Source: Sulfobacillus thermotolerans (lineage in GTDB: Bacteria; Bacillota; Sulfobacillia; Sulfobacillales; Sulfobacillaceae). From it: a stretch of 64,000 nt of DNA. The notes beneath the pieces were generated by a model, which was given only the letters and a program-made list of their open reading frames with translations, searched no databases and was not told the origin of the DNA. The stretch covers positions 1,488,001 through 1,552,000 of the forward strand of contig CP019454.1 in NCBI GenBank assembly GCA_002951815.1, given 5' to 3'. Both the position numbers and the translations under genes were made by a program. This document shows, piece after piece, positions 5,994 through 17,553 of the stretch. Numbering within the stretch: the stretch's first letter is position 1; each line of letters starts with the position of its first letter.

Positions 5994-7175
5994 TTACACC
6001 GGTAGATTGCCCCGTAACACCATATAGGCTTTTTGAAAGAGAGACTTCGCCGCCCATGGCCAATGTCCTGCATGCACGATTTCTCGCGATCCTCCGTAAT
6101 ACACATCGCTTTGCACAAATAAGCCGCGCCCTCCGCCGGTTTCAAGAGCCCATAAAAGCTGGGGGCGGTAGGGCTGTGGCAAGGGACGATGATTTTGCAC
6201 GGCGTGCCAGTGTTTAACAGCAATGTGTGCCTGGACCATGGCACTATGTCCCATCTTGGGCCAGGAATGGCTGACAATATCCCCAACGGCGTAGATCTCT
6301 GGGTAGTGGGGATGATTGAGGTACGCATTGGTGGGAACCCATCCGAACCCATCGTCAAGGTCCGTCCCCCGCAAGTACTCTGATCCGATATAGGGCGGAA
6401 TCCAGACGGTCGCGTCATAACGAATGCGCTGGGTTCTTAAAATGATTTCGCTAGCGGTCACTTGATGATATTGGGCTTCGGTCACGACACCAATGTGACG
6501 CCGAGCCAATTCTTGTTGAAGCCAATGTTGGGCTTTGGGGCCAGCGTTTTCGGCAACGGTCTTGGCCGGAGTAAGGACTGTTATTGTCGAATTGCCTCTC
6601 TGGTTTTGTTGGCGAAGATGGGTATCCCACAAGAAGGCAGCTTCGAGGAGCGGACACTCGCATCCCACCGTGATGGGGGGTGTCCAAGCGGGATTGCTGT
6701 CAATGCCGCCCGCGGCAAATACGATGCGACGGGGAATCTGGTGCGTTAACGTTGATGCCAATTGGCGTGCCAAGTAGTCTTCACATATTCCGCCGCAACT
6801 GGGCTCAAGTCCTTTGATAGTATGCCAACCTGGTCGGCTTCCCGTTGCGATGAAAAGAACGGTGTAAGGGACTGGTGGGTGGTTTGCGGTATGAATCAGA
6901 TGTCTGACAGGATCTATGCCTGTGACGACATCATGGACAAACGTGATCGCATGACGTTTTCGGTAGGCCGTGAGGGGAATCTGGACTGACGACATCACTT
7001 TGTTAGGAGGATTGTTGACAGCGTGCACGAGTCCAGGTCGATAGACCGTATCGCGCCATTGGTCTATGACCACGATGGCCAATTGTCCGGGACGATAGAG
7101 TCGCCGCAGCCAAGTGCTCACGGCCAATCCTCCAAATCGGGATCCCAAAATCACTGCCTGTTCGGTGCGGCCCAC
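5994..7175 (-). CDS. FAD-dependent oxidoreductase, sulfide:quinone reductase/NDH-2-like
   Basis: Two-dinucleotide-binding-domain flavoprotein, probably a peripheral membrane enzyme passing electrons to quinone. The N-terminal nucleotide motif is VILGSRFGG (residues 8-16); an ATGSRPG motif lies at 110-116; the FAD-closing motif is YAVGDIVS with a following PKMGHSA. Cysteines at 127, 131, 172 and 174 fall where SQR family members carry an active cysteine. The C-terminal catalytic cysteine of classic SQR is not evident: the matching segment reads LLWALETGGG. I chose the GTG at 7175 (AAGGA about ten bases upstream, starting just before the nucleotide motif); an in-frame ATG at 7280 would add 35 unlikely residues. 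Substrate is therefore uncertain: sulfide, another sulfur compound, or NADH. Confidence 0.7.
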   Translation of the reverse strand: MGRTEQAVILGSRFGGLAVSTWLRRLYRPGQLAIVVIDQWRDTVYRPGLVHAVNNPPNKVMSSVQIPLTAYRKRHAITFVHDVVTGIDPVRHLIHTANHPPVPYTVLFIATGSRPGWHTIKGLEPSCGGICEDYLARQLASTLTHQIPRRIVFAAGGIDSNPAWTPPITVGCECPLLEAAFLWDTHLRQQNQRGNSTITVLTPAKTVAENAGPKAQHWLQQELARRHIGVVTEAQYHQVTASEIILRTQRIRYDATVWIPPYIGSEYLRGTDLDDGFGWVPTNAYLNHPHYPEIYAVGDIVSHSWPKMGHSAMVQAHIAVKHWHAVQNHRPLPQPYRPQLLWALETGGGRGLFVQSDVYYGGSREIVHAGHWPWAAKSLFQKAYMVLRGNLPV

Positions 7176-7444
7176 GAATCCATCATCCTTGCTGTTGGGT
7201 TCATGGGCGTATTGTGTGTCTCTAGGCGATACTCTATGCGGATTGCCGTTACTTAGGCCTCTATCAATAAAACACAACACTTTGGCTGCAAGGGTCCTCT
7301 TTCAGGGGCGACACCATGATGCGGTCTTGGGGCCGATCCTGGCGATTATCTCACAGTGGGCGGAAATGGGCGACATGCTAGTCACCTTTTCGACGTGATC
7401 CCATATTATTCCTATAACAACAGGGATGGAACGGAGGACTCGTC

Positions 7445-8535: not shown

Positions 8536-9513
8536 GTGTTGCCGCTATATATGGTGGGCGAGGTTGATTGGCTCACCACCCAAGCCTTATATCATGCGTT
8601 GCCGACGATGCATGAAGAAGGAATCGTTCTATGCTGGCCGCGCGATCCTTATGTATCCATCGGTTGTCATCAGGATTGGCAAGAATTTGACGCCCGTGCT
8701 GGGCTTCCTGTGGTAAGGCGGCATGTAGGAGGTACGCTAGTTTATTTAGATCAGCACCAAATTTTTTTTCAAGTTATTGTCAATGCATCCCACCACGTTG
8801 CAAAAAAGTCCCCGCAGCAATGGTACCAATATGCCTTAGCGCCTGTTGTGTCGTATTTGCAGACCATGGGATTTGCTGCGATGTTCAAGAGCCCTGCCGA
8901 TATTCTCATCAATAACCGAAAAATTTCTGGGAATGCAGGGGGTCAAATTGAAGATAGTGTCGTTATTGTAGGGAATATTTTGTTGCGCTTTGACCCCGAA
9001 ATGATGGTCAAAGTGCGAGCGGGCTCCTCTATCTTCAAACACTCCTTTGCAGATGCGCTGGCCCGGCATCTTACCACCCTGGAAGAGCTCAGCGGGCGCG
9101 AGTGGCAACCGGAGACCGTGATGAGGGATTTGGCAACCTCTTTCCATCGGCATTGGGACACCGTGCTGCGCGAGGTTCCTTGGGACCGCTGGAACCCGGT
9201 GGTTGAGCAAGTGGGACGCAGTCTACTTCAACCGCGGTGGCTTTACGCACCGGGAATGCGGCCACGTTACCATCAAATCAAAGTGCGGGAAGGGGTGTAT
9301 TTGCGGCAGCCACGTGAAGATGCCTGGTTTCCTGATATTGTGGCGGAAGTGGATACGGAGCGGCAACTATGTTTGCAGATTTGGAACCTGCCGTTTGAGG
9401 TGCCCCTGCCGTTGCCGTACGCGCAAATTGGCGATTACATAGGGGATCCTCATTTACAAGAAGTATTGCTAAGTCTTATGGACCGTTCGACGTCTTCGTC
9501 CTTATTACCGTAA
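8536..9513 (+). CDS. Lipoate-protein ligase A-like protein (first paralogue)
   Basis: Cytoplasmic BPL/LPL-fold enzyme expected to activate an acyl group (octanoate or lipoate) with ATP and attach it to a lysine of a carrier protein. The substrate-binding RRxxGG motif appears as VVRRHVGGTLVYLD near residues 59-72 and the lysine motif as NNRKISGNAGG near 120-130. About 75 residues of C-terminal accessory domain follow. The start is GTG at 8536 with GGGGTGAGG before it; ATG at 8551 is an alternative. It begins an operon with a GcvH-like carrier, a second ligase and LipS1/LipS2, which fits the sLpl/LipS route of lipoate assembly. Which of the two ligases loads which substrate cannot be told from sequence. 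Confidence 0.8.
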   Translation: MLPLYMVGEVDWLTTQALYHALPTMHEEGIVLCWPRDPYVSIGCHQDWQEFDARAGLPVVRRHVGGTLVYLDQHQIFFQVIVNASHHVAKKSPQQWYQYALAPVVSYLQTMGFAAMFKSPADILINNRKISGNAGGQIEDSVVIVGNILLRFDPEMMVKVRAGSSIFKHSFADALARHLTTLEELSGREWQPETVMRDLATSFHRHWDTVLREVPWDRWNPVVEQVGRSLLQPRWLYAPGMRPRYHQIKVREGVYLRQPREDAWFPDIVAEVDTERQLCLQIWNLPFEVPLPLPYAQIGDYIGDPHLQEVLLSLMDRSTSSSLLP

Positions 9514-9574
9514 AGGTCTCTCCCTTGCGGTGTGTCGATATGTTCTGAAAAATCTTTGTGAGGGGTGGGTAAGT

Positions 9575-9985
9575 ATGGCTATCGAACCGATTCATCGGTG
9601 GAAAGTGGTGCCGGGTAGGTTGTACGATAGGCATCATCAGTGGGTGCTTCAAGAGGATGTACTTATTACGGTGGGAGTCACGGATTATACCCAAGATACT
9701 GCGGGCGATATTCTTTATGCGGCACTGCCGGAGCCCGGAACCGTTCTCGTCGAAGGCATGCCTTTTGGTAGTATCGAGTCGGGCAAGTGGGTGGGGCAGT
9801 TATATGCACCTTTTGACGGGGTTGTGATTGTTGCCAATGCTTTAGTGCAAGACGATCCGCAAATACTGAATCGTGATCCGTATGGACAAGGATGGTTAAT
9901 TAAGGCTAGGGCGACGACGTCCTTGGAGAACTTTTTATCAGCGGACGCGTACAGCGCGTGGCTATCCCAGCAGGATGTGTTGTGA
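9575..9985 (+). CDS. GcvH-like lipoyl carrier protein (probable LbpA type)
   Basis: A 136-residue lipoyl-domain protein. The modified lysine lies in IESGKWVGQLYAP (about residues 66-78), and the downstream GcvH signature is clear (LNRDPYGQGWLIKA). Ordinary glycine-cleavage H proteins read ESVK followed by small residues; from memory the ESGKWVG form is typical of LbpA carriers encoded with sHdr sulfur-oxidation genes. I start at ATG 9575, preceded by GAGGGGTGGG, rather than at 9530. The stop overlaps the next start (TGATG). No gcvT or gcvP genes are in the window. It is either LbpA or a true GcvH; the motif and the neighbouring LipS genes favour LbpA. Confidence 0.8.
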   Translation: MAIEPIHRWKVVPGRLYDRHHQWVLQEDVLITVGVTDYTQDTAGDILYAALPEPGTVLVEGMPFGSIESGKWVGQLYAPFDGVVIVANALVQDDPQILNRDPYGQGWLIKARATTSLENFLSADAYSAWLSQQDVL

Positions 9986-11067
9986 TGGACACGTGGCGGA
10001 TGTTGGATTTAGGGCCGTTGCCTGCATGGAAGCAGATGGCGTTGGATAAAGTGGTTATTGAAGCGCGTGCGCGCGATAGCGTGCCCAACACCTTGCGGTT
10101 TATGGAATTTTATCCACCTACAGCGTTAATTGGATATCACCAGAGTGTGGATTTGGAAATAAATAGAAGTCAAGCCGAGCGATTGGGGGTGGAAATCAAT
10201 CGACGCATTACGGGCGGCGGAGCAATTTATATGGATGCCCAACAACTCGGATGGGAGATATGTATGAAGGTAGGTGCGTCTCAGCGCATTCGTCCAGAAT
10301 CGCTCTATCCACAGCTCGCGCAAGTGGTCGTGGAGGCGTTGGGTTCATGGGGCATTAAGGCGCACTTTCGTCCTGTCAATGATGTGGAAGTCGATGGGCG
10401 TAAAATTTCCGGAACCGGTGGGGTTGATTATTATGGCACCGTGATCTACCAAGGGACACTATTACTGGACTTTGATGTCAAGACCATGCTGGAGGTTTTG
10501 CGGCTTCCTGTTGAAAAACTTTCAGACAAAAGTGTCACATCTTTTGCGCAGCGATTAGTAACGATGCGCGAGTTGCTTGGGCAGTCGCCTCCAATGGATG
10601 AGGTCAAAGAGCGAGTGCAAGCGGCTTTGATGCATGTCCTAGGAGTCCGTTTAGTTCCCTCCTCGTTAACAGACTTTGAGGCGGATGCATGGCAGCAATC
10701 GGCCGAAACCTACCGTATGCCGCAGTGGATTGACCGTCGCAAGCCGCCTCAACCGGATGCCAACTATCCGCTTGAAAATCTGACGTATAAAGCCTCTGGT
10801 GGTCTTCTCCGTTTAACCGTGCAAACCAACATGGCGATGACTCACATTAAAACCATTTTTATTACGGGAGATTTTTTTGTCTATCCCGAACGCGCTGTCT
10901 TGGATTTAGAAGCGGCCTTGAAAGATGCCCCATTAGAGATCCATGCCTTGCAAAGCATCGTACAGCAACATTACCGCACAGGCTATCAATATCTAGGAGT
11001 CAAAGAGGAAGACTGGATTGCCGCATTGTCTCCTCTTTGCCTCAATCGCCGGGAGGGATCGCTATGA
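9985..11067 (+). CDS. Lipoate-protein ligase A-like protein (second paralogue)
   Basis: A 360-residue BPL/LPL-fold ligase, 1-base coupled to the carrier gene (TGATG). It shows the canonical acyl-binding motif INRRITGGGAIYMD near residues 70-83 and the lysine motif VEVDGRKISGTGG near 131-143. The C-terminal 110 residues (from about residue 250) match the LplB-like accessory domain needed for acyl-adenylate formation, so the protein looks like a natural LplA-LplB fusion, the sLpl(AB) layout. It differs clearly from the first ligase in this operon (GGGA against GGTL in the motif). The start at 9985 is fixed by coupling and by AGGA upstream. Confidence 0.85.
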   Translation: MDTWRMLDLGPLPAWKQMALDKVVIEARARDSVPNTLRFMEFYPPTALIGYHQSVDLEINRSQAERLGVEINRRITGGGAIYMDAQQLGWEICMKVGASQRIRPESLYPQLAQVVVEALGSWGIKAHFRPVNDVEVDGRKISGTGGVDYYGTVIYQGTLLLDFDVKTMLEVLRLPVEKLSDKSVTSFAQRLVTMRELLGQSPPMDEVKERVQAALMHVLGVRLVPSSLTDFEADAWQQSAETYRMPQWIDRRKPPQPDANYPLENLTYKASGGLLRLTVQTNMAMTHIKTIFITGDFFVYPERAVLDLEAALKDAPLEIHALQSIVQQHYRTGYQYLGVKEEDWIAALSPLCLNRREGSL

Positions 11068-12200
11068 ACGATGACGCATATCGCCACCAAATTGAGCTGC
11101 GTCCCCAACCACACGTTGCCCATGAGAGTCCGACTCATGTGATGACGTCGTTGGCTGGGGCCATAACATTAGGTTTCGAAAAGGGAAAGTTCGCTCGGCC
11201 AGAAACGGTGTTAAGGGGTCTTAATATTTTAATGACCTATCAAGAAAATTGTGTCGCGAACTGCTCTTATTGTGGGATGTCTCGGGAGCGCAGGGTGCCG
11301 CGTGAAGACGCCACCTTTATTCGGGTCAAGTGGCCCATTGTGGCAGTTGACGATCTCATAGAGCGCAGTGTTCAAGTGCCCCATCAAATGCGCCGATTGT
11401 GCGTCGGTATGTTGGCAAATCATCAGTCGTTTGACCATTCGTTGCAGATTATCCGGCAATTTCATGAGCGTACCCCGTTGTTGATTTCTGGTCTCATCAC
11501 GGCGTCCTTAATCAAGAAGCGTGATGATTTGCAAAAAATCCGCGACGCGGGGGCTGATCGAGTCGATATTGCTATTGATGCCGCGACCCCTGCGCTCTTT
11601 GAGAAGCATCGGGGCCGACCTGTCAAAGGGCCTCATCGATGGGAGCATTTTTGGTGGGTAACAGAGGAGGCCACGAAAGTATTCGAACCGGGCACTGTGG
11701 GAATTCATTTAGTGGCGGGGTTAGGAGAAACAGAACAAGAACTGCTGGAGGCCTGTCAAAAAGCTCAAGATATGAATGTTGTCACGCATTTATTCTCGTT
11801 TAATCCGGAACCGTCAACACTGTTAGGGGATTATCCGCAACCGTCAATGGGTCATTATCGTCGATGCCAACTTGGACGTTACCTTGTCAATGAGTTGGGA
11901 GTATCTGTCCATCAGTTTCGTTTCAATGCGCAAGGGCAGGTTATCGATTTTGGCGTAGACCTTGATGTGCTTGCGCGAATTATTGAATCAGGGCAACCGT
12001 TTATGACGTCGGGATGTCCCGATGAACAAGGAGAAACCGCATGCAATCGGCCTTATGGTAACGGCCGCCCCAGTGAAAAAATTCGCAACTTCGCCTTTCA
12101 GCCGGGACCGCAAGATATCCAAGACATTCGCGCGCAATTATGGACGGATTGGGCCGGGGAGGACATATATCAGGAGGTGGGGCATGAACTGGAGCGATAG
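11064..12200 (+). CDS. lipS1: Radical SAM lipoyl synthase component LipS1
   Basis: A 378-residue radical SAM protein with the 4Fe-4S site CVANCSYC (CX3CX2C) near residues 63-70. Later cysteines (GCPDEQGETACNRP, near 320-335) could bind a second, auxiliary cluster, which sulfur-inserting enzymes need. LipS1 and LipS2 together insert sulfur into octanoyl groups on a carrier protein and replace LipA, as shown for archaeal homologues. The ATG at 11064 follows GGGAGG and overlaps the previous stop (ATGA). Assignment as LipS1 rather than LipS2 rests on length and gene order. Without the operon context it could be mistaken for a biotin-synthase-like protein. Confidence 0.75.
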   Translation: MNDDAYRHQIELRPQPHVAHESPTHVMTSLAGAITLGFEKGKFARPETVLRGLNILMTYQENCVANCSYCGMSRERRVPREDATFIRVKWPIVAVDDLIERSVQVPHQMRRLCVGMLANHQSFDHSLQIIRQFHERTPLLISGLITASLIKKRDDLQKIRDAGADRVDIAIDAATPALFEKHRGRPVKGPHRWEHFWWVTEEATKVFEPGTVGIHLVAGLGETEQELLEACQKAQDMNVVTHLFSFNPEPSTLLGDYPQPSMGHYRRCQLGRYLVNELGVSVHQFRFNAQGQVIDFGVDLDVLARIIESGQPFMTSGCPDEQGETACNRPYGNGRPSEKIRNFAFQPGPQDIQDIRAQLWTDWAGEDIYQEVGHELER

Positions 12201-13137
12201 ACCGCTAGAGGAGCTTATCACCAGGGCGGGGATGCTATCGCAGAATTACTTTGCCCGGTCGTTGACCGTTTCGGCGCCGAGTCAGAAACACTATGATACG
12301 GGGATCTATCAAAATCACCGTACTGCTTTTGCGTCCATGAGCGTCACGGGCAATCATTGTGCACTGCAATGTGACCACTGTGGCACAAAAGTCCTCGAAG
12401 GGATGACGGTTGCGAATAGTCTTAAGCGCTTTCGTGACGCGGCGGATACCTTGGTTGCCAACGGGACGGATGGGGTTTTGATTAGCGGAGGATGTTTAGA
12501 AGACGGGTCGGTGCCTTTAGAACGGTTTGTAGAGGATATTGCGCGTCTTAAAGACCGAGGGCTTACCGTTTTAGTTCACACCGGATTGGTAAAACGTTCG
12601 GTCGCTCACGCTTTGAAGATGGCGGGTGTGGACCAAATTCTTTTAGACATTATTGGTGCCGACGAAACCATTCACCGGGTGTATCATCTCGACAAGACGA
12701 CCCGAGATTACCGTGAGTCCCTGGCGATCTTGCGAGAAGAGGGTTTAAATGCAGTGCCGCATGTCGTGGTTGGATTGCACTTTGGTGCGTTGCTGGGAGA
12801 ATTTAATGCGTTGGAAATGATCCGTGATGAACGCTGCCAACAACTGGTCATTGTGGCGTTAATGCCGTTGCCGGGGACTCCCATGGCAGGGGCTGCACGG
12901 GTTTCAGCCGAGGATGTCGCGCGTGTAATTGCGGCGGCTCGGATTATGATGCCGTCCACGCCTATTTCGTTGGGGTGTGCAAGGCCGCCTGGTCCAGACA
13001 AATTGGCTATGGAAGCATACGCGATTGAATGCGGCGTGCAAAGTATTGCCTACCCCTTGGCCGGGACCATTCGCTATGCGGAAGCTAAAGGGTATACCAT
13101 TCACTACCACGAGAAATGTTGTTCGCTGCTCGCTTAA
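12184..13137 (+). CDS. lipS2: Radical SAM lipoyl synthase component LipS2
   Basis: A 317-residue radical SAM protein with the CX3CX2C motif CALQCDHC near residues 59-66, a GG-type motif ISGGCLEDGS near 102-111, and a C-terminal CC pair (HEKCCSLLA). The open frame extends upstream to 12022, but the ribosome site AGGAGG before ATG 12184 fixes the start, giving a 17-base overlap with lipS1. Paired with LipS1 it should complete sulfur insertion at C6 and C8 of protein-bound octanoate. Its cysteines at the C-terminus are candidates for an auxiliary cluster ligand; that is inference. Confidence 0.75.
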   Translation: MNWSDRPLEELITRAGMLSQNYFARSLTVSAPSQKHYDTGIYQNHRTAFASMSVTGNHCALQCDHCGTKVLEGMTVANSLKRFRDAADTLVANGTDGVLISGGCLEDGSVPLERFVEDIARLKDRGLTVLVHTGLVKRSVAHALKMAGVDQILLDIIGADETIHRVYHLDKTTRDYRESLAILREEGLNAVPHVVVGLHFGALLGEFNALEMIRDERCQQLVIVALMPLPGTPMAGAARVSAEDVARVIAAARIMMPSTPISLGCARPPGPDKLAMEAYAIECGVQSIAYPLAGTIRYAEAKGYTIHYHEKCCSLLA

Positions 13138-13527: not shown

Positions 13528-14166
13528 GTGGATAACAAAAGTCCATTAGAGACAGAATTGCCTGAAGAATCTACGTGGAGTCGGCGCCAATTTCTGTGGG
13601 GTATGGGAGGCGTTGCGGCGGCGGGAGCCGTCACATTGTTTGGTCGGCAGGCGCTTGTTAGCGCGGCTCGAGGGGTCTTTGGGTCTCCGGTGGACTCTGG
13701 CAATCTTAACTTTTACGCCTATGACTATTATTACATTCCCAATTATATGACGTGGCGTGTTGGGGATTATATGCGCGTGACGTTCCAAAATCAAAGTCAT
13801 ACGCACTGGCACGAATGGACCATTGGTCGCCATCTTAATGAAGCATATTTCCAAGCCTTTGGGGAAATGGATGCGGATGCGTGGCAGACGGATTTTTGGG
13901 ATGGTGTCCCTGTCACCTTGAGTAACCCATATAACATTGACAACTTCGTCCCCAACAAAGCCATTGTCACTTACGAGGGTCCCAAATATCTCTATAACAT
14001 TGCGAGCGGCGGGGACTTTAGTCCCACATTGAAGCCGGGAGGAAGTTTGACATTGTCGTTTCAGGTTCCCAATAAACCGGGCTTGTGGGATTTTGGATGC
14101 TTTGTTCAGCAGTACATTCACTACCGGACCGGTATGCGCGGCAAACTGATGATTTTGCCAGCCTAA
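13528..14166 (+). CDS. TAT-exported blue copper protein (cupredoxin, sulfocyanin/rusticyanin-like)
   Basis: A 212-residue protein with a twin-arginine signal (WSRRQFLWG, residues 17-25, then a hydrophobic stretch), so it is exported folded. The type-1 copper ligands are visible: a histidine within HTHWHEW (91-95) and C191, H198 and M203 near the C-terminus (C-x6-H-x4-M). The loop between Cys and the second His is longer than in plastocyanin or rusticyanin. It opens the oxidase operon, so it probably delivers electrons to the CuA site of subunit II in place of cytochrome c. GTG start with GGAGG nearby. An alternative is an accessory cupredoxin subunit of the complex itself. Confidence 0.8.
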   Translation: MDNKSPLETELPEESTWSRRQFLWGMGGVAAAGAVTLFGRQALVSAARGVFGSPVDSGNLNFYAYDYYYIPNYMTWRVGDYMRVTFQNQSHTHWHEWTIGRHLNEAYFQAFGEMDADAWQTDFWDGVPVTLSNPYNIDNFVPNKAIVTYEGPKYLYNIASGGDFSPTLKPGGSLTLSFQVPNKPGLWDFGCFVQQYIHYRTGMRGKLMILPA

Positions 14167-14169
14167 GGG

Positions 14170-15018
14170 GTGATGGCGGAAGGGAGAAGGGTGTCTGTGG
14201 ATGTTTTAGGGTTTGGCATTGTGTGGGTCGTTCTCTCCATTCTCGGAGAAATGGGCGTGCGGGTCATTATTCACAATGACCCGATGTACTATACCGCTTC
14301 CAATATTGGACTCATGGTCGAAAGTGCAATGGATTTTCTGATTGTGGTGCTCGTTCCGATTTTCATTTTCGTTGGGCTCACGCTCGTGTGGTCGATGATT
14401 CGATTTACGGTGAAACGCGGAGAAACCCCGACGTTACCGGAAAAATTTGCCCGCAGTAACAAATGGTTTGTAGGAAGCTGGGTCATTGGCAGTATAGGCA
14501 TCAATTTATTGTTCTTCCTGCATCCTACGGCGTCCGCGACCGAACAATTCTTTGCGATGGAAAATCCGCAAGCGGCCGCCAACAAACAAGCCATTATCGT
14601 AGACGTCACCGCGCGCCAGTGGGAATGGATTTTTAGCTACCCGCAGTACGGGCTGACGCAGACCTTGGATGCCAATGGTCAAGATCAATTGGAATTGCCG
14701 GTGGGGCGGTCGGTGAAATTTGTGTTGCGCTCGTATGACCCGTATCACACCTACGACCAATATGTGGATGTGATTCATAGTTTTTGGGTGCCGTCTTGGG
14801 GTATTAAAGAGGACGTCATTCCAGGTGAGGCGCGTTCCATTTATATTACGCCCACCAAGATCACCTCGTTCGCGCAAAACCCGATGTCTCGCGTACAGTG
14901 CGCCGAAGTCTGCGGCCCCGGACACCCATGGATGGAAGCGCCGTTAAATGTTGTATCGTCGAGCCAGTTTGCTAAATGGATTCAGTACGAGAAAAAGCTG
15001 CAAAGTGGTCTGGGTTAA
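14170..15018 (+). CDS. Cytochrome c oxidase subunit II (CuA)
   Basis: Membrane-anchored CuA subunit of a haem-copper oxidase. Two or three hydrophobic segments lie within residues 10-120, followed by a cupredoxin domain facing outside. The CuA ligands are C244, C248, H252 and M255 (CAEVCGPGHPWM), plus a histidine in VIHSFWVPSWG. The tryptophan-rich ARQWEWIF segment typical for electron entry is present near residue 150. The start is uncertain: GTG 14170, ATG 14173, or GTG 14191 after AAGGGAGAAGG. It lies three bases after the cupredoxin gene. Confidence 0.9.
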   Translation: MMAEGRRVSVDVLGFGIVWVVLSILGEMGVRVIIHNDPMYYTASNIGLMVESAMDFLIVVLVPIFIFVGLTLVWSMIRFTVKRGETPTLPEKFARSNKWFVGSWVIGSIGINLLFFLHPTASATEQFFAMENPQAAANKQAIIVDVTARQWEWIFSYPQYGLTQTLDANGQDQLELPVGRSVKFVLRSYDPYHTYDQYVDVIHSFWVPSWGIKEDVIPGEARSIYITPTKITSFAQNPMSRVQCAEVCGPGHPWMEAPLNVVSSSQFAKWIQYEKKLQSGLG

Positions 15019-15070
15019 TGATAACGGAGGCTAAGCGTAAAGCGATGGCTGAAGCAAGGAGGGAATTTTA

Positions 15071-16987
15071 ATGGCACAAACCACTATGGTGCCGGCCGCC
15101 ACTCGTGCACCCAAGGCGGGGAAACGCAATGTCATGCCGCCCGTCTTAAGGGGCTTTTTGTGGGCCGCTATTGGCTTTGTGGTCGTCAACACGTTTGTTG
15201 ATATTGTCGACCCGTTCCGCGGCCACCCGTTTGTGACGGGCCCATCCGCAACATTTGGATGGGTAGCTGCGGTGATTGGATGGCTACTGGGCGTAGGAGT
15301 TTGGGAATCGGTGGCGTTGCCCCTATTTGGATATAAGGACCGTTGGCACGAAAAGTCTACGGGATGGCGGCGCTATTTCGAATATAGTACCGACCATAAG
15401 GTTATTGGGTTGCAATATCTTGGATCAGCTATGGGGGGATTCCTCATCGCCGGCGCTGTGGCTATGTTGATGAGGATTCAGCTTATGAGCGACCACCTGA
15501 CAATTTTCCACTATCCGAGCAATTACCTTACCGCGGTTGGTATTCACGGAACGATTATGATGTTTTCCGTGGCCAACGTGGCTCTTCTCGGTGGGTTCGG
15601 CAATTACATGGTGCCCATGATGATTGGGTCTCGGAGCACTGCCTTCCCCAAATTGTCCGGCATTAGCGTCTGGTTAGTACCGGCGGGAATTCTTACGGTA
15701 CTATTCAGTCCATTGTTAGGGGCTTGGACGACAGGGTGGCGTGGGTATGAGCCGTTGGCCAGTCAGGATGCTAATGGGATTCTATACTACTACCTTGGTG
15801 TCGCAGCGCTGACAATGTCTACATTCATCGTCGGACTCAACATGGTGACCACCGTGATGTTCCGCCGGGCCCAGGGAATGACATGGAGTCGATTGCCCTT
15901 ATTTGCGTGGGGACAGCTCACCGTGGGATTGCTCGTGCTCATATGGATTCCGGAAATTCAGACGACGTTCGTCCTCGCGTTGCTGGAAAAACTGGTGCCG
16001 TTTAATTTCTTTGCTGCTACGGGCAGTGTAATGAGTTATCTCGAGTTGTTTTGGCTGTTTGGTCATCCTGAGGTCTATATGATTGCGGTGCCGGCGTTCG
16101 CGTTGTGGAATGAAATTATTCCCGTGATGTCGCAGAAGTCGCTGTTTGCCCGCGACTGGGCTGTTATCGGATTGGTTTTCGTAATGATGCTGAGTGGCTT
16201 GGTCTGGGCGCACCACATGTTTACGAATATCCGCAACAGTGAACTTTTGCCCTTCTCCTTCTTCACGGAAATGATATCGATTCCCACGGGGTTTGCCTAC
16301 ATGGCGGCGATTGGGACCATGTGGAAGGGAAAAATTCGCCTGACGACGCCCATGCTCTTGATTTTGATGAGTATGTTCAACTTCCTTATCGGCGGATTGA
16401 CAGGGGTTTTGTTGGCTGACCCCATGGTCAACTTGCAGTTGCATGATACGTTTTATGTTGTAGGACACTTCCATTACACCGTGATTGGCAGTTTAGTCTT
16501 TACAGGCTTAGCCGGTGTGTACTATTGGCTGCCTAAAATGTCGGGGCGGTTGTACAACGAGTTTTGGGGTAAGTTCTTGTCGATTGTGTTGTTCCTCACC
16601 TTCAACCTGACCTTTAGCCAGTTCTTCCTGTTGGGACTGCATGGGATGAACCGGTGGGTGCCTGCCTATCCTCAGTATTTGCAACCGATGAATTTTGAAG
16701 TCTCGATTTTCGCGTTCTTCCTTGGCGCTTCGTTCCTCGGTCACTTCATTCACATCTTCTGGGCATGGGCTAAAGGCGCTAAAGCCACGGAAAACCCATG
16801 GAATGCGCGGACCCCGGAATGGTTTACGACGTCGCCGCCGCCTCGTTACAACTTCCCCGTCGAGCCGGAAATCGTGTCGAGTCTATACATTTATGGGTCC
16901 AAGCAGCCAGTGTCGGTGCAATTCCCCGCAGAGCAGGAGTTGGCTGCGACTAAAGATCCTCAAGATGAAGGAGGGCCTCACGAATGA
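15071..16987 (+). CDS. Cytochrome c oxidase subunit I
   Basis: Catalytic haem-copper subunit reducing O2 to water. Ligands are visible: H159 (low-spin haem), H332 with Y336 (CuB, GHPEVY), H381 and H382 (CuB), H466 (high-spin haem) and H468 (low-spin haem). About 100 extra N-terminal residues with two hydrophobic helices precede the normal core. E334 of GHPEVY is present, but the D-channel aspartate (IGAxDxAFP in standard enzymes) is S189 (IGSRSTAFP) and the K-channel lysine (PTGIK) is A409 (PTGFA). AAGGAGGG precedes the ATG. The stop overlaps the subunit III start. Confidence 0.95.
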   Translation: MAQTTMVPAATRAPKAGKRNVMPPVLRGFLWAAIGFVVVNTFVDIVDPFRGHPFVTGPSATFGWVAAVIGWLLGVGVWESVALPLFGYKDRWHEKSTGWRRYFEYSTDHKVIGLQYLGSAMGGFLIAGAVAMLMRIQLMSDHLTIFHYPSNYLTAVGIHGTIMMFSVANVALLGGFGNYMVPMMIGSRSTAFPKLSGISVWLVPAGILTVLFSPLLGAWTTGWRGYEPLASQDANGILYYYLGVAALTMSTFIVGLNMVTTVMFRRAQGMTWSRLPLFAWGQLTVGLLVLIWIPEIQTTFVLALLEKLVPFNFFAATGSVMSYLELFWLFGHPEVYMIAVPAFALWNEIIPVMSQKSLFARDWAVIGLVFVMMLSGLVWAHHMFTNIRNSELLPFSFFTEMISIPTGFAYMAAIGTMWKGKIRLTTPMLLILMSMFNFLIGGLTGVLLADPMVNLQLHDTFYVVGHFHYTVIGSLVFTGLAGVYYWLPKMSGRLYNEFWGKFLSIVLFLTFNLTFSQFFLLGLHGMNRWVPAYPQYLQPMNFEVSIFAFFLGASFLGHFIHIFWAWAKGAKATENPWNARTPEWFTTSPPPRYNFPVEPEIVSSLYIYGSKQPVSVQFPAEQELAATKDPQDEGGPHE

Positions 16988-17553
16988 CGAACCAACCTGT
17001 GAGCATGGGTTCTGCGCCGCGCAAAGGGCGGCCGGATTCGAGTCGTCGGATGGGGCGCTTTGGAATGTTCATGTTCATTGCCAGTCAATTGGTGCCCATT
17101 ATCGTGTTAATCGATGTACGCTACCTCTTTGTGGGAAGCTACGTCTCCTCCTCCGCAGACCAACCGGTTGCCCTTTTAGTGGCGGTTCTCATGGCCGTAA
17201 GTGGGATTATGGCGTGGACCGTTCGGGGATCGGCGATTCGCGGGGTGGACCAAGTCGCCCGGGTGAAATGGATGGTGCTGTTGGGGGCTGGGGCGTTACT
17301 GGGCGTGCTGTACCAATGGTCTGTGCGGTATCTGTCGCCTGGTACACGTTATGGTGAGGTGTTCTTCACCATGACGGGATTTGCCGTGTTTTATCTCGTT
17401 GTGGGCCTTATCGCATTGCTTTCATATATCTCGCGGGTGCGGTTTGTGGCGTCCGCCGATGATGGGTATTGGCATATGGAGGCTGTGTCATTATTGTGGG
17501 CAGGAATTTCAGTGATTTGGCTTGTGGTATACATTGTACTCTATCTGTTGTAA
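16984..17553 (+). CDS. Cytochrome c oxidase subunit III
   Basis: A 189-residue protein with five hydrophobic helices, the short bacterial form of subunit III. The family signature near the C-terminus is YWHMEAVSLLWAG (compare YWHFVDVVWL in standard enzymes), followed by the last helix. It starts at ATG 16984, overlapping the stop of subunit I by four bases (ATGA), with AAGGAGGG upstream. It should stabilise the catalytic core. Confidence 0.85.
   Translation: MTNQPVSMGSAPRKGRPDSSRRMGRFGMFMFIASQLVPIIVLIDVRYLFVGSYVSSSADQPVALLVAVLMAVSGIMAWTVRGSAIRGVDQVARVKWMVLLGAGALLGVLYQWSVRYLSPGTRYGEVFFTMTGFAVFYLVVGLIALLSYISRVRFVASADDGYWHMEAVSLLWAGISVIWLVVYIVLYLL

Follow-up and report, generated by a model that had tools for sequence, protein, structure and literature searches.

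The question raised by this locus is what two LplA-like proteins do around a single carrier and two radical SAM proteins, in a genome that also encodes the standard lipoate genes lipA and lipB. The locus lies in a 64,000-nucleotide stretch of the single-contig Sulfobacillus thermotolerans genome (hereafter, the window; bases 1488001-1552000 of 3,317,203) and consists of five genes, numbered here in their order: an LplA-like protein (gene 1), a GcvH-like carrier (gene 2), an Lpl(AB) ligase (gene 3), LipS2 (gene 4) and LipS1 (gene 5). We assign the operon to the published sLpl(AB)-LipS1/S2 pathway and lean, by a small degree, towards a reading in which it is a self-contained lipoate factory working by lipoyl relay. 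Gene 3, using ATP, would attach free octanoate (or lipoate) to the lysine of gene 2, the hub carrier; LipS2 would insert sulfur at C8, followed by LipS1 at C6; and gene 1, unable to activate the free acid, would hand the completed lipoyl group on from the hub to client carriers, which here would most likely be the LbpA proteins of two sHdr clusters located elsewhere in the genome. We infer the roles of gene 2 as assembly hub and of gene 1 as relay transferase, together with the identity of the clients, from the gene order, the protein families, the motifs that were retained or lost, the co-occurrence and the carrier phylogeny presented below.

The assignment of genes 3-5 to this pathway was based on family models, metal-cluster ligands and neighbourhood. 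The LipS1 and LipS2 models were by far the best families for genes 5 and 4, respectively: gene 5 matched NF053742 (6e-67) with 226 bits, just under the cut-off of 230, which relatives within the genus pass on one side or the other, and gene 4 matched NF053743 (1e-60) with 206 bits, clearly under the cut-off of 270. Both proteins contain the CX3CX2C site, and both keep the auxiliary-cluster ligands at the positions mapped by mutation in Thermococcus kodakarensis (PMC9585515), i.e., three Cys and one His in LipS1 and three Cys in LipS2. The last two auxiliary Cys of gene 4 are spaced CX8C, compared to CX2C in the Thermococcus and gcv-type LipS2 proteins; this long form was seen to be common to hub-type operons and Hydrothermarchaeota. 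Gene 3, the sole complete ligase within the operon, carries the RRxxGGG motif, the Asn-Asp pair (ND) with the catalytic Lys (NDVEVDGRKISG), the LplB domain and the GDFF motif, and it adjoins the LipS1 and LipS2 homologues. For homologues of all three, the Lpl(AB), LipS2 and LipS1 activities are known from the literature. An earlier sequence-only reading of this DNA had recognized a LipS1/LipS2 assembly operon that also encodes a carrier and an Lpl(AB) fusion, and had proposed comparison with the characterized enzymes; the models, the CX3CX2C sites and the T. kodakarensis ligands in genes 5 and 4 confirm this part of it.

The five genes were confirmed as real and translationally coupled, with start codons backed by orthologue alignments and re-read DNA; for gene 2, the start listed at GTG 9530 is probably too long, and ATG 9575 was preferred. 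After this re-reading, genes 2-5 still overlap, as had been described, with shared stretches of 1 base (genes 2/3), 4 bases (3/4) and 17 bases (4/5). The identical order, with lipS2 preceding lipS1, is kept across Sulfobacillus relatives, including a genome of the same genus (G104), and this conservation indicates that the arrangement is not due to chance. Promoter and terminator scans yielded fewer sites than shuffles did, and an Rfam search gave no match.

The properties of gene 1 carry most of the argument. Genes 1 and 3 both match the LplA catalytic domain (PF21948; 4e-27 and 2e-43), and the sequence-only reading accordingly spoke of two ligases. In the alignment, at the same time, gene 1 reads PADILINNRKISGNAGG (PADILINNRK) where gene 3 and the sHdr ligases read NDxxVxxRKIxG, so the ND mark of ATP-dependent ligases is lost, and the PGGL and GDFF motifs of LplB were not found in its C-terminal part. 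The NCBIfam LplB model (NF053749) matches the three full ligases of this genome (the C-terminus of gene 3 with 3e-12, A_sLpl and B_sLpl), with no match in gene 1 or in two other half-ligases. Gene 1 as a second ordinary ligase was thus ruled out by its motifs. Among 118 homologues with residues at the motif, the Lys and Asp are invariant, the Lys count being biased upward by search patterns that covered part of the motif; the ND Asn, which lay outside these patterns, is kept in 82 and replaced by Ala, Cys or Ser in 36. The GD position of LplB is retained in 71/82 of the Asn-type proteins against 2/36 of the others, both in unrelated tails. The Cys-dependent LipM (ACFDxPSWYE) and the LipL-like protein of this genome (YCEGPYDL) are also devoid of the ND Asn, so that, in what could be compared, this residue appears to go with ATP-dependent ligation. 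Gene 1 as LipM or LipL was rejected as well, as no Cys loop precedes its [YW][DE] motif, and the absence of these loops makes LIPT1 its nearest functional likeness. Its Cys33, invariant in the Ala and Cys types, was considered as a nucleophile and dropped: several Asn-type ligases share it, and it precedes a Trp that is presumably the one of the E. coli lipoyl pocket, so it should face away. The confident AlphaFold model (pLDDT 94.7) comprises a complete LplA fold and a small C-terminal domain. By its motifs, gene 1 falls outside the ordinary ligases and resembles a transferase.

The distribution of genes 1 and 2 follows that of the synthase. LipS1 was found in 13/42 genomes of the order, and orthologues of genes 1 and 2 were present in all 13 of these, where they neighbour one another as well as genes 3-5, and absent from the remaining 29 (Fisher p about 4e-11, a value for which the relatedness of the genomes overstates their independence). 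Two genera each hold both states. Several of the 29 genomes without LipS1 possess sHdr clusters, LbpAs and full sLpl(AB), which, together with the 13/13 versus 0/29 pattern, indicates that genes 1 and 2 track lipoate synthesis and not sulfur oxidation as such. Four loci of this kind (L237-L240, in G098, G121, G093 and G087) combine sHdr clusters and LbpAs with full sLpl(AB) but no LipS1; the LbpA sulfur there possibly comes from LipA or from scavenged lipoate. In most other families of the class (L138-L155), LipS1-LipS2 and a LipM-type transferase are located in the glycine cleavage operon beside the genome's GcvH.

The carriers of half-ligase genomes occupy two kinds of position: one is the immediate neighbour of Lpl(AB), LipT or LipS2, and a second accompanies a client enzyme (sHdr or GlcD-GlcF). 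In G164 and G165, the hub carrier-Lpl(AB)-LipS2-LipS1 unit has no client, and a half-ligase-client LbpA-GlcD-GlcF unit is found at another locus; in Pelosinus, the half-ligase abuts the client LbpA, and a hub-type carrier abuts Lpl(AB)-LipT-LipS2-LipS1. In the carrier tree, 20/22 hub-position carriers and six GcvH rows fall into one supported group (96/92), apart from sHdr LbpA1/LbpA2, and the GlcD/GlcF client carriers form a group of their own (100/93). Gene 2 belongs with the hub carriers and GcvH, not with the sHdr LbpAs; it is not a GcvH proper, since it stands outside the GcvH clade and its site reads ESGKWVG versus the ESVKAVSD type. Within the order, this hub-type carrier occurs only alongside lipS operons. 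GcvH is also the hub of the known relay systems. As a separate observation, genes for LbpA, a GlcD-like FAD oxidase and a GlcF/HdrD-like iron-sulfur protein recur as a coupled set in Bacillota and in a myxococcal metagenome-assembled genome (MAG), possibly encoding an undescribed lipoyl-dependent 2-hydroxyacid oxidoreductase.

Relatives of gene 1 are not confined to the order. A pattern scan of 84,980 species genomes detected them in Alicyclobacillus tolerans, Desulfosporosinus, Pelosinus and others. In a tree computed without the ND Asn column, 26 Ala-/Cys-type sequences cluster within the sLpl(AB) family in a single supported group (SH-aLRT 97), and the Thermoplasmata Ser-types and Hydrothermarchaeota forms arose apart from it; a single origin of all half-ligases is therefore unsupported. 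All 12 further genomes searched that carry an Ala-/Cys-type half-ligase, a set including one Thermoplasmata locus (L179) from outside the supported group, also have LipS1 and a full gene-3-type Lpl(AB). Independent Ser-type half-ligases were seen in Thermoplasmata and one other MAG (L220, L228, L231-L235), in genomes without LipS1; they mostly adjoin a divergent LbpA (ESEKWVGH-like) and an sHdr cluster with its own full ligase. The repeated loss of the Asn and of LplB in Thermoplasmata suggests convergent evolution of putative relay enzymes.

The remaining lipoate machinery of the genome altered several points of the sequence-only reading. The search it had called for found lipA, lipB and a second gcvH. 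The first two immediately follow the genes for E1 and E2 of a 2-oxoacid dehydrogenase; contrary to what had been supposed, LipA is thus not replaced by LipS1/S2 in this genome. LipA is present in 38/42 genomes of the order, and its coexistence with LipS1/S2 is usual in bacteria having LipS (PMC10332631). Instead of one carrier, six GcvH-type proteins are encoded (five LbpA-type and a separate GcvH of the GcvH clade), and the LplA-type proteins number seven, including an LplJ-like ligase. A division of labour between the two LplA-like proteins of the operon remains likely, and its suggested form, octanoate loading against transfer, is close to our proposal, in which gene 3 would do the loading and gene 1 the transfer. 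The two sHdr clusters contain no LipS genes, and the operon in the window holds the only LipS1 and LipS2 of the genome; this layout agrees with the published picture, in which LbpA maturation genes may be located away from the hdr genes (PMC6067878). The HdrA gene of the Etf-type cluster, intact in relatives, is split by a transposon of ~3.8 kb, and this second sHdr complex of the strain may be inactive.

Several results weigh against the relay. Published sLpl(AB) enzymes load sHdr LbpAs directly, and each of the two sHdr clusters has its own complete sLpl(AB); with these full ligases at hand, a relay is not strictly needed to load the sHdr LbpAs, and the clients of gene 1 are uncertain here. 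The Cys used by the bacterial relay enzyme LipL is missing from gene 1. The hub-position carriers of G164 and G165 fall just outside the hub and GcvH group. No LipS1 was found in the seven searched genomes with Thermoplasmata-type Ser half-ligases, so half-ligases can also serve other lipoate sources. Finally, bovine lipoyltransferase (2e5a) was the best Foldseek match of gene 1, but ligases were tied with it at Z-scores of 22-25, which do not separate the two; the fold search, being unable to distinguish transferase from ligase, was not counted as evidence.

Among the alternatives, gene 1 could be an octanoyltransferase that brings octanoyl from acyl carrier protein onto a carrier, leaving salvage to gene 3. 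Such de novo entry would be useful, since sLpl(AB) needs free octanoate (PMC10332631), and loss of LplB also marks the LipM-type octanoyltransferases that neighbour LipS1/S2 in the gcv operons of the class. We nevertheless regard it as unlikely: LipM and LipB depend on a catalytic Cys, whereas gene 1 lacks the LipM loop and has Ala where its deep relatives carry the Cys; LipB is, moreover, already available in the genome, and a separate hub carrier without a client enzyme would be left unexplained. Gene 1 might otherwise be the transfer half of a split ligase, in which the octanoyl- or lipoyl-AMP made by gene 3 serves gene 1 for loading other carriers. The Arg-Arg and Gly-Gly pocket residues and the catalytic Lys, all kept in gene 1, fit this scheme, as do the full ligase that always accompanies its relatives and the ability of LIPT1 itself to use lipoyl-AMP (PMC7253636); in G164, G165 and Pelosinus, however, the half-ligase stands beside the client and not beside the ligase. 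Lipoyl-AMP is, furthermore, labile and tightly held in known ligases, and this scheme, too, seems improbable.

We give little credence to gene 1 as a non-catalytic partner that helps gene 3 to choose carriers, or as a decaying paralogue: several ligase motifs are indeed lost, including the third Gly of RRxxGGG in Sulfobacillia, but the catalytic Lys is invariant in all members, dN/dS values of 0.12-0.15 reveal purifying selection, and co-occurrence with LipS1 is strict. The ordinary case, with genes 1 and 3 as two ligases of differing carrier preference and gene 2 as a third sHdr LbpA, is very unlikely, even though the operon adjoins an sHdr cluster in G099, G118 and G096 and Firmicutes clusters of sHdr Group III reportedly have two or three LbpA genes (PMC6067878), since activation motifs are missing from gene 1, and gene 2 clusters with GcvH and the hub carriers and does not occur in sHdr genomes that have no LipS1.

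Known examples of lipoyl relay, in bacteria of the B. subtilis type and in mitochondria, operate with LipA. Our literature search found no paper joining it to LipS1/LipS2 and none describing the pairing of a conserved half-ligase with a hub carrier close to GcvH. Beyond this strain, it is possible, and we propose it tentatively, that in many Bacillota and some other bacteria, lipoate made by the LipS1/S2 pathway is assembled on a dedicated GcvH-like hub carrier and then passed on by a half-ligase whose descent from sLpl(AB) was independent of LIPT1 and LipL; such half-ligases would be among the amidotransferases postulated by Tanabe et al. If so, the pathway follows its own hub-and-client logic, and the conversion of a ligase into a relay enzyme has happened at least once more, by a LIPT1-like change. 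The ND Asn and the LplB motifs offer a testable mark separating ligase from half-ligase in an easily mis-annotated family, and the proposal bears on how sulfur oxidizers charge several LbpA proteins.

Table 1 Features of the operon, its flanks and related loci (window positions unless "genome" or a locus label is given)
Feature	Position	Strand	Start	Length	Description
Gene 1	8536..9513	+	GTG	325 aa	LplA-derived half-ligase, candidate lipoyl/octanoyl transferase; RRHVGGT, PADILINNRKISGNAGG, without LplB motifs
Gene 2	9575..9985	+	ATG	136 aa	GcvH-like carrier (GCV_H, 1e-32); modified Lys within ESGKWVG
Gene 3	9985..11067	+	ATG	360 aa	Lpl(AB) ligase; RRITGGG, NDVEVDGRKISG, LplB domain, GDFF motif
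Gene 4	11064..12200	+	ATG	378 aa	LipS2 radical SAM; CVANCSYC; auxiliary Cys RRLCVGM and SGCPDEQGETACNRP
Gene 5	12184..13137	+	ATG	317 aa	LipS1 radical SAM; CALQCDHC; auxiliary GCARPP, C-terminal CC, conserved His (VYHLDK)
Upstream flank	5994-7280	-			Protein resembling type III sulfide:quinone reductases
Downstream flank	13528-17553	+			Tat-signal cupredoxin-like protein at head of haem-copper oxidase operon
sHdr cluster	genome 235-244 kb				HdrC1B1A-hyp-C2B2, two LbpAs, full sLpl(AB)
sHdr cluster, Etf-type	genome 1.22-1.24 Mb				Hdr, EtfBA, LbpA1, LbpA2, full sLpl(AB)
Split HdrA	genome 1223327-1228162 (L049:3328-8163)				Residues 3-280 and 278-349 flank the transposon
LipL-like protein	genome about 883331-884146 (L053:1831-2646)	-		271 aa	Cys loop GSYCEGPYDLV
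GcvH	genome 1126507				GcvH clade
GlcD/GlcF-LbpA	L198:7881-11936
GlcD/GlcF-LbpA	L176:7995-12114
GlcD/GlcF-LbpA	L255:5963-9544
GlcD/GlcF-LbpA	L256:11647-15202
GlcD/GlcF-LbpA	L263:9161-12713

Compared to known systems, the operon is closest to the sLpl(AB)-LipS1/LipS2 pathway (PMC10332631, PMC9585515, PMC6067878), with which it shares Lpl(AB) with its LplB domain, LipS1, LipS2, an LbpA-type acceptor, coexistence with LipA and sHdr clusters in the genome. It differs from the published systems in the extra half-ligase and the extra GcvH-near carrier, the absence of lipT from the operon, the order lipS2-lipS1 and the distance from both sHdr clusters. With the LipM of the gcv operons of the class, gene 1 has in common the LplA fold without an LplB domain and the position beside LipS1/S2 and GcvH, but not the Cys loop. 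The likeness to LipL of Bacillus subtilis lies in the proposed carrier-to-carrier transfer of lipoyl from a GcvH-type donor; gene 1 is without the LipL Cys loop, and a separate LipL-like protein is encoded elsewhere in the genome. LIPT1, which passes lipoyl from GcvH to other proteins, derives from a ligase whose C-terminal activation domain has failed (PMC7253636), and its bovine form (2e5a) reads KRFDLLLDGQFKISG, with the ND Asn lost and the Lys kept. Gene 1 has the same marks and fold, namely the LplA fold, the catalytic Lys, the lost Asn, a C-terminal domain no longer functional in activation and an expected GcvH-type donor, which makes it a LIPT1-like half-ligase by resemblance and does not imply common descent. 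The Asn position is Phe in LIPT1 and Ala121 in gene 1, whose catalytic Lys is Lys129; gene 1, with its putative relay activity, is of independent origin, from the archaeal-type sLpl(AB) lineage, and has LipS1/S2 instead of LipA as its partner synthase.

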